Part shown: positions 31,910 to 37,269 of the stretch, in pieces
How positions within the stretch are numbered: the first letter of the stretch is position 1
How the letters are laid out: each line of letters opens with the position of its first letter
From: Flavivirga algicola
GTDB lineage: Bacteria > Bacteroidota > Bacteroidia > Flavobacteriales > Flavobacteriaceae
Direction: 5' to 3'
Assembly: GCF_012910715.1 (NCBI RefSeq)
Contig: NZ_JABBHF010000003.1
Coordinates: 124,001-188,000, forward strand
DNA length: 64,000 nt
Notes under the pieces: model-generated
Told to the model about the DNA's origin: nothing
What the model saw: the letters and a program-made list of their open reading frames with translations, nothing else
The model's database searches: none
Translations under genes and position numbers: made by a program

Positions 31910-34900
31910 ATGTACTTAATTTTCGATACAGAAACTACTGGATTACCTAAACGATGGGATGCGCCTATTACAGATGTTGATAATTGGCCTAGGTGTATTC
32001 AAATTGCATGGCAGCTGCACGATGCCATGGGAAATTGTATCGATCACCAAGATTATTTAGTACAACCAGAAGGGTTTAATATTCCATATGACGCGGAGAA
32101 AGTTCATGGTATTTCAACAGAATTAGCTCAGGAACAAGGTATTCCGTTAGCTGAGGTCTTAGAAAAATTTAATGATGCCTTAAGTAAAACCAAATTTGTT
32201 GTCGGACAAAATGTGAAGTTCGATTTAAACATTATGGGCGCCGAATTTGTTCGTGGAGATGTTTCAAATCCATTACAGGAATTACCTGTTTTAGATACCT
32301 GTACAGAACATACGGCAAGTTTATGTCAGATCCCTGGTGGTCGTGGTGGTAAATTTAAGTTACCAACACTTACAGAATTACATGAATTTTTATTTAAAGT
32401 GCCTTTTGCCGAAGCCCATAATGCCACGGCCGATGTTGAGGCAACGACACGTTGCTTTTTTGAGCTGATTCGTTTAGGAGAATACACCAAAGAGCAGCTC
32501 GATGTAGAACCTGATTATTTTCAGAACTTTAATGAAGCCAATCCAAAAGAGATTGAGCTTATAAATTTAAAGCATGTTAACCTTAAAAAGGAAAGTGCTA
32601 AAATTCGTGAGCGCATTAATAGCCTTAAACAAGACACGGTTTCTACTGAAGATATAGAGCGAAATATATCCGATTTGGCAGATGCTGGTTTTGTGCACCT
32701 TCATAATCATTCGCAGTTTTCTGTATTGCAATCAACTATGAGTGTTGGTGATATTGTGGCTGCCGCTGCCTCTCATAATATGTCTGCTGTAGCGCTTACC
32801 GATCACGCCAATATGATGGGGGCATTTCATTTTATAAATGCTGTTAACAAACAAAATAATAGTATAAAAGCGCTTTTAGAGGAGGCTGAAGCTAAAGGAG
32901 AAGTTTCAGAAAAACAATTGATAAAACCAATTGTGGGGTGTGAGTTTTTTGTTTGTGAAAACCATCAAGATAAATCAAGAAAAGATAATGGGTATCAAGT
33001 TGTATTGATAGCTAAAAACAAAAATGGTTATCATAATCTGGCAAAATTATCGTCCCACGCCTTTGTTAACGGTTTTTATTATGTGCCTAGAATAGATAAA
33101 AAACTTATTCAGGAATATAAGGAAGATATTATAGTACTTACTGGTAACTTATATGGTGAAGTACCAAGTAAAGTCCTTAATATTGGAGAGAAACAAGCTG
33201 AAGAAGCGCTGTTATGGTGGAAAAATGAGTTTGGAGATGATTTGTATGTGGAAATTATGCGTCATAATCAGGAAGATGAAAATCGCGTTAATACAACCCT
33301 GATAGCATTAGCAAAAAAACATGATGTAAAATTAGTCGCAACGAATAACACATATTACCAAAAGAAAGACGATGCGAACGCACATGATATTTTACTATGT
33401 GTAAAAGATGGAGAGAAGCAGGCTACTCCCATAGGTAGAGGAAGAGGCTACCGTTATGGATTGCCTAACCAAGAGTATTATTTTAAGTCTTCTGAAGAAA
33501 TGAAACAATTGTTTCAAGATCAGCCAGAAGCCATTTTAAATATTAAGGAGGTTGTAGATAAAATTGAAGGGTTTCAACTAGCGAGAGATGTCCTTTTACC
33601 TGCCTTTGATATCCCCGATGAGTTTAAGCATGAAGAAGATTTAATAGATGGGGGTAAGCGCGGTGAGAATGCCTATTTACGTCATTTAACCTATGAAGGA
33701 GCAAAAAAACGTTATGGTGACCCTCTCTCTGAAGATGTTATTGAGCGTCTTGATTTCGAATTAAGTGTTATCGAAAACACGGGATATCCAGGATATTTTT
33801 TAATTGTTGAAGATTTTATTCGTGAAGCCCGAAACATGGATGTATCTGTAGGGCCAGGGCGTGGATCTGCTGCTGGGTCGGTAGCTGCTTATTGTTTGTG
33901 GATTACCAACATTGATCCTATGAAATACGATTTGCTTTTTGAGCGTTTTTTAAATCCAGATCGTATTAGTATGCCCGATATTGATATTGATTTTGATGAT
34001 GAAGGACGAAGTCGTGTCATGGACTATGTTATTGAAAAATATGGTGCTAATCAAGTAGCTCAGATTATTACTTATGGAACCATGGCCGCTAAATCTTCTA
34101 TTCGCGATACGGCTCGTGTTTTGGATTTACCGCTTTTTGATGCCGATAGAATTGCGAAGTTAATTCCAACCATGTCTAAACTGAACAAGATTTTTGGTTT
34201 AGATGAAAAAGAATTAGGTAAAAAGTTTCGTGCTGAAGACTTAGAAAAAGTGAATCAGCTTTTAAATATTTCAGAAGGATCAGATTTAGAGGCAGAAACG
34301 GTTAATACGGCAAGAGCTTTGGAAGGTTCGGTAAGAAATACTGGTATCCATGCCTGTGGGGTTATAATAACTCCCGATGATATCACCAAGTTTGTCCCTG
34401 TATCTGTGGCTAAAGATTCCGATTTATATGTCACACAGTTTGATAATTCGGTTGTTGAAGATGCTGGTTTGTTAAAAATGGATTTTTTAGGGTTGAAGAC
34501 GTTGACTTTAATAAAAGATACCGTTAAAATAGTAAAAGCAAAACATGATATTTTACTAGATCCAGAGACATTCCCTTTAGATGACCAAAAGACGTATGAA
34601 TTATTCCAGCGAGGTGAAACTGTTGGTGTGTTCCAATATGAATCTCCTGGGATGCAAAAACACCTTAGAGATTTAAAACCTACCGTTTTTGAAGATCTAA
34701 TTGCCATGAATGCTTTGTACCGACCAGGGCCTATGGAATACATTCCAAGTTTTGTTAGGAGAAAACATGGTGATGAAGATATTGAGTACGATTTGCCAGC
34801 CATGGAGGAGTACTTGAAAGAAACATACGGAATTACGGTTTACCAAGAGCAGGTGATGTTGTTGTCTCAAAAATTAGCTGGTTTTACAAAAGGTGAAGCC

Positions 34901-36298
34901 GATGTATTACGTAAGGCGATGGGGAAAAAGCAAATTGCGGTATTGGATAAAATGAAACCAAAGTTTGTTGAGCAGGCGAGTGCAAATGGGCATGATGCTA
35001 AAATTTTGGAAAAAGTTTGGAAAGATTGGGAAGCCTTTGCGAGTTATGCCTTTAATAAATCTCACTCTACATGCTATGCTTGGATTGCCTATCAAACGGC
35101 CTATTTAAAAGCCCATTATCCTGCGGAATATATGGCGGCGGTTCTATCTAACAATATGAACGATATTAAACAGGTGACCTTCTTTATGGAAGAATGTAAA
35201 CGTATGAAATTGGATGTATTGGGTCCAGATGTTAACGAATCGTATTATAAGTTTTCTGTAAATCAGGATAATGCGGTACGTTTTGGTATGGGAGCTATTA
35301 AAGGTGTTGGTCATGGAGCTGTAATGACTATTGTCGAAAAAAGAAAAGAGGATGGCCCCTATAAATCTATTTTCGATTTGGCAAAACGAATCGATTTAAG
35401 GGCTGCAAATAAAAAGGCTTTCGAAAATTTAGCTTTAGCTGGCGGGTTCGATTGTTTTGGAAATACGCATCGCGCTCAGTATTTTCATAAAGAAGGAGAT
35501 GATATCACTTTTTTAGAAAAAGCAGTTAAGTATGGTAGTAAGCACCAAGAAAATGAGAACTCATCTCAAGTGAGTTTGTTTGGAGCAACGAGCGAGGTGC
35601 AAATAGCAGAACCCCAAGTACCACCATGTGAAGAATGGGGAACTATGGAGAAATTGGCCCAAGAACGTGAGGTTGTAGGGGTTTATATTTCTGGTCATCC
35701 GTTAGACGATTTTAAAACCGAAATGAAAACGTTTTGTAACGGTACCATTGCCATGTTCAATAATCTGGAGCCTTATGTTAATAGAGAAATTGTTTTTGGA
35801 GGTGTCGTCACCGATGTGCAACACCGTGTAAGCAAGCAAGGAAAAGGCTGGGGGCTTTTTACTGTTGAAGATTATACTGATAGTTTTGAGTTTAGGATTT
35901 TTGGTGAAGAATATTTAAAATTCAGGCATTTTTTAATGAAGAACAATTTTGTGTTTATTAAATCATTTATCCGGGAAGGATGGGTTAATAAAGACACAGG
36001 AAAAAAGAGCGATCCAAGGTTGCAGTTCAATAGTTTTCAGCTGCTGCATGATGTTATGGAAAATTATGCTAAAAAACTATCCATCCAACTTAATATTAGA
36101 GATCTGAAAGAAGAAAACATTCTGCATTTAAAAGAATTGTTGCAAATGCACCCTGGAAACCAGGCGTTAAATTTTGTGGTGTATGACAACAAGGAGCAAA
36201 TAAAACTACAAATGCCAAGTAGACGACAAAAAGTTAAAGTATCCCAAGAGTTGCTTAGTGAACTTGAGAGTCGGGATGTGTTATTTAAGTTGAACTGA
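31910..36298 (+). CDS. dnaE: DNA polymerase III alpha subunit with N-terminal 3'-5' exonuclease domain
   Basis: 1462 residues, the replicative polymerase. Residues 1-190 are a DnaQ-type exonuclease with all DEDDh motifs visible: FDTETTGLP, VVGQNVKFDLNI and HNATADVEATT. The PHP domain follows near residue 265 (VHLHNHSQFSVLQ, LTDHANMMG). The polymerase core has GPGRGSAAGSVAAYC near 650 and the catalytic PDIDIDFDDEG near 688. A helix-hairpin-helix region, an OB domain near 1290 (IVFGGVVTDVQHRVSKQGKG) and a C-terminal tail complete it. Fusing proofreading to DnaE removes the need for a separate epsilon subunit in this complex. It is transcribed alone. Confidence 0.96.
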   Translation: MYLIFDTETTGLPKRWDAPITDVDNWPRCIQIAWQLHDAMGNCIDHQDYLVQPEGFNIPYDAEKVHGISTELAQEQGIPLAEVLEKFNDALSKTKFVVGQNVKFDLNIMGAEFVRGDVSNPLQELPVLDTCTEHTASLCQIPGGRGGKFKLPTLTELHEFLFKVPFAEAHNATADVEATTRCFFELIRLGEYTKEQLDVEPDYFQNFNEANPKEIELINLKHVNLKKESAKIRERINSLKQDTVSTEDIERNISDLADAGFVHLHNHSQFSVLQSTMSVGDIVAAAASHNMSAVALTDHANMMGAFHFINAVNKQNNSIKALLEEAEAKGEVSEKQLIKPIVGCEFFVCENHQDKSRKDNGYQVVLIAKNKNGYHNLAKLSSHAFVNGFYYVPRIDKKLIQEYKEDIIVLTGNLYGEVPSKVLNIGEKQAEEALLWWKNEFGDDLYVEIMRHNQEDENRVNTTLIALAKKHDVKLVATNNTYYQKKDDANAHDILLCVKDGEKQATPIGRGRGYRYGLPNQEYYFKSSEEMKQLFQDQPEAILNIKEVVDKIEGFQLARDVLLPAFDIPDEFKHEEDLIDGGKRGENAYLRHLTYEGAKKRYGDPLSEDVIERLDFELSVIENTGYPGYFLIVEDFIREARNMDVSVGPGRGSAAGSVAAYCLWITNIDPMKYDLLFERFLNPDRISMPDIDIDFDDEGRSRVMDYVIEKYGANQVAQIITYGTMAAKSSIRDTARVLDLPLFDADRIAKLIPTMSKLNKIFGLDEKELGKKFRAEDLEKVNQLLNISEGSDLEAETVNTARALEGSVRNTGIHACGVIITPDDITKFVPVSVAKDSDLYVTQFDNSVVEDAGLLKMDFLGLKTLTLIKDTVKIVKAKHDILLDPETFPLDDQKTYELFQRGETVGVFQYESPGMQKHLRDLKPTVFEDLIAMNALYRPGPMEYIPSFVRRKHGDEDIEYDLPAMEEYLKETYGITVYQEQVMLLSQKLAGFTKGEADVLRKAMGKKQIAVLDKMKPKFVEQASANGHDAKILEKVWKDWEAFASYAFNKSHSTCYAWIAYQTAYLKAHYPAEYMAAVLSNNMNDIKQVTFFMEECKRMKLDVLGPDVNESYYKFSVNQDNAVRFGMGAIKGVGHGAVMTIVEKRKEDGPYKSIFDLAKRIDLRAANKKAFENLALAGGFDCFGNTHRAQYFHKEGDDITFLEKAVKYGSKHQENENSSQVSLFGATSEVQIAEPQVPPCEEWGTMEKLAQEREVVGVYISGHPLDDFKTEMKTFCNGTIAMFNNLEPYVNREIVFGGVVTDVQHRVSKQGKGWGLFTVEDYTDSFEFRIFGEEYLKFRHFLMKNNFVFIKSFIREGWVNKDTGKKSDPRLQFNSFQLLHDVMENYAKKLSIQLNIRDLKEENILHLKELLQMHPGNQALNFVVYDNKEQIKLQMPSRRQKVKVSQELLSELESRDVLFKLN

Positions 36299-36340
36299 TA
36301 AACCTTGCATGCAATGAGTTTGTCAAAATGAAGGAATCTC

Positions 36341-36695
36341 ATGATTATGAAAAAGATACTATTCTACCATATAATAGCCTTTTTGGTTTTAGAAGTAATT
36401 TTCTTTTTTTCTTCAGGAGAATTGATAAAATTGTTAGTGCCAGAAGAGGGTGTCTAAAAAGTATGTTCAATGTCATATTGAGCTTGTCGAAATATTTTTA
36501 AAATACTGATACTCAATGTTGGTTTCGACAGGTTGAATGCTGAGCGTAGTCGAAGTGCTCAACCTGACAAATCAAATTACTAAGACTTTTTAGACACCCT
36601 CTTATTTAAACCTGTTTGGGGTAGCTTTTCTTTTCATAGCAGTTCTTATTGTATTTCTAATTAATAGAAAAAAGTTTAAAAAGCATTGTTCTTAA
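36341..36695 (+). pseudogene. Small membrane-protein gene split by a 160-bp repeat element
   Basis: An ATG at 36341 opens MIMKKILFYHIIAFLVLEV, a hydrophobic helix, followed by FFSSGELIKLLVPE. The frame then runs into the inverted-repeat element (36444-36603) and stops. Directly after the element, a compatible frame continues as YLNLFGVAFLFIAVLIVFL and ends INRKKFKKHCS with a stop at 36693-36695. Joining the parts gives a small protein of about 65 residues with two membrane helices and a basic C-terminus. No family is recognised. It lies 42 bp after dnaE. Confidence 0.7.
36444..36603. mobile_element. MITE-like element with 19-bp terminal inverted repeats
   Basis: AAGAGGGTGTCTAAAAAGT at 36444-36462 is repeated in perfect inversion at 36585-36603. 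The 160-bp element has no transposase and interrupts a small membrane-protein frame. The interior (36471-36575) contains TGAGCTTGTCGAAAT and, in the other half, GTTTCGACAGGTTGA and GTAGTCGAAGTGCTCAACC, a second inverted-repeat family I recognise as dispersed in flavobacterial genomes. The ends recall IS1182/IS5-type termini. A clear target duplication is not seen. Confidence 0.75.
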
Positions 36696-36819
36696 TCTTT
36701 CAAAATAAGGTGTAAGAACCTGTTTATGGATTTACTTAATTTGTGTTTTGAATTTTCAAAAAATAGATTGTTGCAGCTATTTCACCTTAACAAAGACAAT
36801 TTGATTTACTATTAAAAGC

Positions 36820-37269
36820 TTATTTGTCTTCCTCTAAAAAATCTTTTAAACTACTGGTAATAAATCGATTCCAGGTGGTAGAGCATACCTCATAACACTC
36901 AATATTTGGAGTCAATCCATTTTGATGGAACTTAATCAAGCTTTTTCCATTTTGTTCTTTTATTTTCCAATGTAGTACATGGCCTATCCACTCTTTGTTA
37001 AAATCAGGTTCACCACCAATACATTTCCAAATGAGCTCGTGATTAGGGGTGTGTTCTATAATCTTAAAAGTCCACCAATAACCATTTTCAAATTGAATGG
37101 TAAAGTGACCACCAGCTTTAAATTCTGAATTACTTATGTTTCCCCACCATGAATGGAGCCCCTCGTTTAAAGCAAAAAAGATGCTTTCTGCATTAGTACT
37201 AACTTCTAATTGTATATTGTAGTTTGCATCTTGATCTTCAAGATTTTTTAATTTAATAGCGTTATCCAT
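36820..37269 (-). CDS. SRPBCC/AHSA1-family protein
   Basis: 149 residues of the START-like AHSA1 fold: NIQLEVSTNAESIFFALNEGLHSWWG, GGHFTIQFENGYWWTFKIIEH and WTGHVLHWKIKEQNGKSL-type strands, with a C-terminal helix (TTWNRFITSSLKDFLEEDK). Such proteins bind hydrophobic ligands; AHSA1-like members in bacteria are often paired with ArsR regulators. Its start overlaps the ArsR-family gene by 8 bp, so it is third in a three-gene operon. Confidence 0.85.
   Translation of the reverse strand: MDNAIKLKNLEDQDANYNIQLEVSTNAESIFFALNEGLHSWWGNISNSEFKAGGHFTIQFENGYWWTFKIIEHTPNHELIWKCIGGEPDFNKEWIGHVLHWKIKEQNGKSLIKFHQNGLTPNIECYEVCSTTWNRFITSSLKDFLEEDK

Follow-up and report, generated by a model that had tools for sequence, protein, structure and literature searches.

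Correia elements (NEMIS) of Neisseria are short, non-autonomous inverted-repeat elements of 105–107 and 155 bp, and the passages of PMC2229807 that describe them add that the larger class has an extra internal segment and that the transcripts fold into stem-loops near genes. The ERIC (or RU-1) repeats of enterobacteria appear in the same passages as short, non-autonomous, multi-copy sequences of 127 bp with inverted ends (PMC2229807). DUS-type terminators, in the description given by PMC2267715, are dispersed, paired uptake sequences that double as terminator hairpins.

The element described here was found in the window, that is, the whole 64-kb stretch of Flavivirga algicola DNA that was analysed. 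As far as the Neisseria elements are described in the source cited, it resembles them in having two size classes, here of 133 and 158 bp, the larger with an extra segment. It differs from them in the absence of target duplication, in a preference for gene ends and in its sequence. Furthermore, the IHF site of Neisseria lies in the internal segment of the long form, whereas the IHF-like site found here, where present, is central. With ERIC, so far as that account goes, the element shares its multiple copies, its inverted ends and a mover that is not identified. The interior of ERIC is conserved; here, in contrast, the interior arms vary strongly by lineage, while the length, the ends and often the centre are kept. 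REPINs consist of short repeats arranged in inverted pairs and multiply within genomes, and both the paired inverted short repeats and the multiplication in the genome are found again here. Unlike REPINs, this element has a long terminator-like outer stem and borders RAYT genes at none of the 30 matches examined out of 63. Compared with the DUS-type terminators, as portrayed above, it is a mobile unit of 133–160 bp instead of a pair of short uptake sequences.

The element belongs to a multi-copy family with a bias in genomic position, interrupts a coding gene and lacks target duplications. It is probably a mobile hairpin, non-autonomous and with a preference for terminator positions, that has here landed in a coding gene. 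According to this proposal, a non-autonomous family would have spread through the genus and widely in Bacteroidota, its paired ends forming a stem of 18–19 bp shaped like a bidirectional transcription terminator. Most copies would settle just past gene ends, several of them at sites where relatives have ordinary terminators. The small gene following dnaE would have been inactivated by one 158-bp copy, which took the place of some 23 bp and brought in a stop codon. The stem would be expected to end transcription, the missing 23 bp were presumably lost together with the insertion, and the spread may have relied on terminator-like sites, either as targets or as places of exchange, and not on ordinary cut-and-paste.

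Table 1. Coordinates of the features around the element, numbered within the window
Feature	Position	Strand	Basis or remark
dnaE, 1462 aa, conserved left neighbour	31910..36298	+	stop at 36298
5' fragment of small two-helix membrane-protein gene	36347..36443	+	orthologue comparison
Putative mobile hairpin element, 160 bp	36444..36603	.	copies, ends, fold
Left inverted end AAGAGGGTGTCTAAAAAGT	36444..36462	+	inverted-repeat search; carries the in-frame TAA that truncates the gene
Inner core TGTCATATTGAGCTTGTCGAAA..TTTCGACA..GCTCAACCTGACA, centre ACTGATACTCAAT	36471..36569	.	without the 25-bp segment, common to 133-bp copies
25-bp segment with CTGAGCGTAGTCGAAG (36540-36555)	36532..36556	+	extra compared with 133-bp copies
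Right inverted end	36585..36603	-	perfect complement of left end
3' fragment of the same two-helix gene	36603..36695	+	read in the orthologues' frame

The 160-bp element of the preliminary description, whose 19-bp inverted ends are perfect, is present at 36444-36603 (Table 1), its arms separated by 122 bp. Counted from AGAGGG to CCCTCT, the same element falls into the 158-bp subtype. It folds at -54.1 kcal/mol (z -6.2), and none of 200 shuffled sequences folds equally well. The 15-bp core of the end, with up to two mismatches allowed, occurs within the 64-kb window just at these two arms (0.14 matches expected; two reached in 1 of 100 shuffles). No ORF of at least 30 aa lies wholly inside the 160 bp.

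The inner core contains a pair of short repeats, one inverted relative to the other (TTGAGC..GTCGAAA / TTTCGAC..GCTCAA), and the alignment places the TTGAGC..GTCGAA inverted repeat in both the 158-bp and the 133-bp copies. It had been suggested that one repeat invaded another. Nesting of the whole interior is ruled out, because the 133-bp and 158-bp copies have the same inner arms, and only the 25-bp segment of the inner repeat would look like an invader. Its CTGAGCGTAGTCGAAG motif is also present elsewhere in the genome, and TGAGCGTAGTCGAA, which lies within the 25 extra bp of the 158-bp form, is found at 36 exact places, 26 or 27 of them outside elements when sorted by hand.

The left neighbour, dnaE, is presumably the gene for DNA polymerase III alpha, with an N-terminal exonuclease-like stretch. 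The proposal that the element splits a single two-helix membrane-protein gene is borne out by the two halves, which both match one 71-aa orthologue. The 5' half starts at the ATG at 36347 (another in-frame ATG lies upstream, at 36341) and is terminated by the TAA at 36455-36457, inside the left arm of the element, while the 3' half runs from about 36603 to the TAA at 36693-36695. In relatives, a protein of 71–77 aa with two hydrophobic stretches (seen by eye) is encoded directly after dnaE. The small protein has no Pfam family above the cut-offs.

Orthologues were searched in 12 genus genomes, namely the window genome and 11 congeners. The uninterrupted orthologue that had been predicted downstream of dnaE is intact there in six of the 11 congeners (G001, G002, G003, G004, G006 and G009). 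In G010 the gene beside dnaE is damaged (L372, L374), with a distant relative elsewhere at 46% identity. G005 has just a weak match to the small protein (E 0.09), and the genus-genome search gave no match in G007, G008 and G011. In the window genome the two fragments are the sole matches. Compared with seven orthologue sequences, about 23 coding bp are missing at the insertion point, or 22–25 bp depending on the assignment of shared A and T bases. Judging from the sequence comparison, the small gene seems to have been broken independently in a second species (G010) and therefore appears dispensable. In the annotation of this species, the small gene downstream of dnaE is best labelled a pseudogene.

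The region between dnaE and the small gene varies in other ways. At four congener loci (L062, L063, L064 and L070) it holds a different palindromic repeat, one that resembles CCTGCGAAGGCAGG with ATCT after it, and the window has decayed or different sequence at 36300-36340, where congeners have this CCTGCGAAGGCAGG-like repeat. In G008 (L069), the small gene is missing after dnaE, and some 30 bp beyond the dnaE stop lies a 430-bp sequence related to the element, whose ends are of the same type.

The ends of the element were expected to be multi-copy and not unique, which is the case. With up to three mismatches, the end pattern is matched in the genome 25 times in forward and 25 times in reverse orientation, compared with four forward and ten reverse matches for its reversed control. 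Eight places in the genome match the window element at 94–100% over 155–167 bp, and these make up a 157–159-bp subtype, beside which stands a sister group of 132–134 bp. The flanks of the eight copies are unrelated save for one 30-bp match (83%), so the copies are not segmental duplications. On this evidence, the 158-bp subtype, composed of the 133-bp form plus the 25-bp repeat, has multiplied recently in this genome as a mobile unit.

The interior is not identical in all members, since four end-matched elements of the same genome (L121, L122, L123 and L126) have different arms. Within one copy the arms co-vary, with 16 shared departures from the consensus against 4.6 in shuffled data (2 of 10000 shuffles), in a test on 23 of the 28 own copies to which L051 alone contributes six of the 16. 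Palindromy of the flanks beyond the arms is not convincing (78 of 138 against 70.8 when shuffled, a value reached in 502 of 10000 shuffles).

The genomic position was analysed in 22 own copies with both ends, two of 24 having been dropped for poor ends, against backgrounds drawn from the one 64-kb window. For 17 of the 22 copies a stop codon is at most 80 bp away, which holds for 26% of the intergenic bases of the window. Half of them (11 of 22) are in convergent gaps, as against five of the 40 gaps in the window, and two of the 22 lie between divergent genes. Counted by hand, TTT follows 15 of the 22 copies and AAA precedes 13. The window copy is one of the exceptions: it sits within a coding gene, 146 bp beyond the stop of dnaE, and its flanks have no A and T runs. 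The terminator scan did not call the window copy. No small-loop stem is formed by the arms of the 132–134-bp and 157–159-bp copies, which have at least 96 bases between them.

The same sites in relatives bear on what these positions held in other genomes. Joined-flank queries were built from ten of the 28 own copies and searched in nine congeners, yielding 31 hand-chosen relative loci for nine of the ten query copies (L037 left out). Of these loci, 28 are colinear and three are not. A gap hairpin of at least eight pairs with a T-rich tail is found at 19 of the 28 colinear sites, which derive from nine own copies and are therefore not independent; in seven of the 28, alignment is weak on one flank (score of 41 or less), and five of these seven are among the 19. 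The nine sites without a hairpin comprise six of the seven for L049, one of the two for L033 and two for L036, both of the latter with poor right flanks. At the L049 site, some relatives have sequence that, by eye, resembles diverged elements of another arm type. As background from the window, the same hairpin finder scores in 8 of 25 stretches that follow stops, in 5 of 37 that precede starts and in 55 of 400 taken at random, and the value after stops means that any gene end would give part of the signal.

The strongest single case for terminator replacement is L039. When it is compared with L283 and L284, the flanks on both sides align without remainder (0 bases), and the two relatives have a terminator of 27–31 bp exactly where the L039 element sits. 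As the relatives compared are other species, the ancestral states are those that we infer.

An ordinary MITE would be an insertion sequence that has lost internal parts and is mobilised in trans by a DDE transposase; the copies at gene ends would then be the tolerated ones and the target duplications would have decayed. This is possible, but on balance we doubt it. The label MITE-like, used in the preliminary description, holds as far as a multi-copy inverted-repeat element is meant, and is not supported in its strict sense, given the missing target duplication, the approximately 23 bp absent from the gene and the lack of an end-matched transposase at the loci examined. The inverted ends, which we take to be IS5-like in appearance, agree with such an origin, as do the absence of coding capacity, the several near-identical copies and the inverted TTTAAACTTTTT borne near their ends by IS5-like PF13340 copies. 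However, in 22 copies, young ones included, no direct duplication of 2–9 bases at any offset tried exceeded the shuffles. A transposase with matching ends had been proposed as the mover, and the search for one brought none: at the 62 transposase loci read, the ends never match on both sides, whether for PF01609 (DDE_Tnp_1; 30 of 67 matches), PF13340 (DUF4096; 12 of 12) or PF13751 (DDE_Tnp_1_6; 20 of 36). On these 62 loci, DDE_Tnp_1, DUF4096 and DDE_Tnp_1_6 are rejected as movers. Weak single-sided end matches occur at two PF01609 loci (L347 and L356).

A further point against an ordinary MITE is that the 115 loci selected for an exact end yielded no end-matched transposase, although four end pairs there lie 0.6–2.7 kb apart. 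The strongest pair, a 1445-bp "IS" in Bacteroides acidifaciens (L154), encloses a pectate lyase gene, and the frames within the other three pairs are not transposase-like by eye. A transposase mover for the element, perhaps one with a preference for hairpins, may nevertheless exist. As for the IS5-like loci themselves, seven of 12 have the inverted TTTAAACTTTTT close to the ends, which partly resembles the element ends (L375, L376, L378, L380, L381, L382 and L384, from G150, G066, G076 and G048), and in G048 GCTG precedes the inverted TTTAAACTTTTT.

Spread without any transposase is rather unlikely in our estimate. Hairpins would then be exchanged through gene conversion driven by microhomology or through template switching during replication, anchored in the common A-rich/T-rich borders (AAAAGAG..CTCTTTT). 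It would fit the replacement of a 27–31-bp terminator without flank loss (L039 versus L283 and L284) and the lack of target duplication in 22 copies. It would also fit L032, whose left end has AAAGGG where the terminators of relatives have AAAAAAGG. At the window site, the G002 and G006 versions of the lost stretch share the 12-mer AATGTCATATTG with the element, and sharing of a 12-mer with the element is found in 0.14% of 24-bp stretches of the window. As a single case, the AATGTCATATTG common to the missing stretch and the element is suggestive. However, it is present in just two of the six intact orthologues, and border homology is nearly nil at the window site.

Copying of a REPIN-like element by RAYT, a Y1 tyrosine transposase, is very unlikely. 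Paired inverted short repeats do lie inside the element, and RAYT-family genes are present in 12 of 12 genus genomes. Nevertheless, none of the 30 RAYT loci examined, out of 63 matches, has the repeat on both flanks, and RAYT was rejected as the mover. The sole 133-bp-type element nearby, in G009, adjoins a broken RAYT frame. Long outer inverted ends are, to our knowledge, not a REP feature. The G009 copy just mentioned is a complete element (L258, 1750-1882) placed directly after the broken frame.

That the sequences are not mobile, being a structured regulatory RNA or terminators inherited from a common ancestor, is extremely improbable and, in its strict form, refuted by the insertion in the window: the terminator-like structure and position agree with it, but near-identical copies stand at unrelated loci, one copy lies within a gene that is intact in relatives, and the element has no Rfam match at gathering scores in ten loci, where the one hit is a tRNA. 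For the window itself, Rfam gave two matches over 36200-36900, both to eukaryotic families and far below gathering.

The favoured reading, a mobile hairpin drawn to terminator positions, can be followed beyond this genome. The element ends are present in 12 of 12 genus genomes, and a scan of genome contigs for the exact end gave at least 115 stretches. Among the 80 of these listed by name, 68 belong to Bacteroidota. The remaining 12, all of them metagenome-assembled or draft records and several without a paired end, are assigned to Ignavibacteriales, Verrucomicrobia, Chloroflexi, Cyanobacteria, Proteobacteria and Bacillota, with one unassigned. In the 115 loci listed, where one end is exact by selection, 87 elements are paired, 40 of them 132–134 bp long and the others 31–309 bp; 21 ends have no partner within 450 bp and seven are at a contig edge. 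Among the open-licence papers searched, none was found that describes this repeat family or its strings.

Across all the loci collected, 64 elements of 132–134 bp were reduced to 31 after removal of near-duplicates. In 16 of these 31 non-redundant elements, the sequence that best fits TGATWATCA lies exactly at the centre. In the 16 elements of exactly 133 bp, the central 13 columns hold 0.78 bits, compared with 0.25–0.29 in the arms. The interiors of 28 of the 31 out-fold their shuffles at z below -2. Length and ends are thus conserved, as the centre often is, and the arms vary greatly yet stay self-complementary. Five of the 31 elements have the strict IHF consensus at their centre, where shuffling predicts 0.14 and none of 300 shuffles gave as many. 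An IHF site is thus real, but it is rejected as a general feature, being present in just these five.

These elements might be selfish terminators of a widespread class, namely hairpins of 133 bp whose ends are fixed, whose centre has a bend-like motif (TGATWATCA, in some cases a full IHF consensus) and whose self-complementary arms diverge freely. They would multiply by swapping with resident terminators, with no transposase of their own and no target duplication, and would be tolerated by their hosts because termination persists. Such a class is a speculative and unlikely reading. If copies do replace terminators yet keep termination, a parasite would multiply at little cost to its host, and this could account for part of the repeated terminators of Bacteroidota. 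A fixed length, fixed ends and a fixed centre combined with freely changing arms make an unusual evolutionary signature.

Among 24 partnerless or weakly paired loci that were inspected, about six are short, plain hairpins of terminator form. Five loci (L176, L219, L228, L245 and L246) have hairpins without an interior, in which the end sequence of the element is followed by a T run, and they look like ordinary terminators that share its stem.
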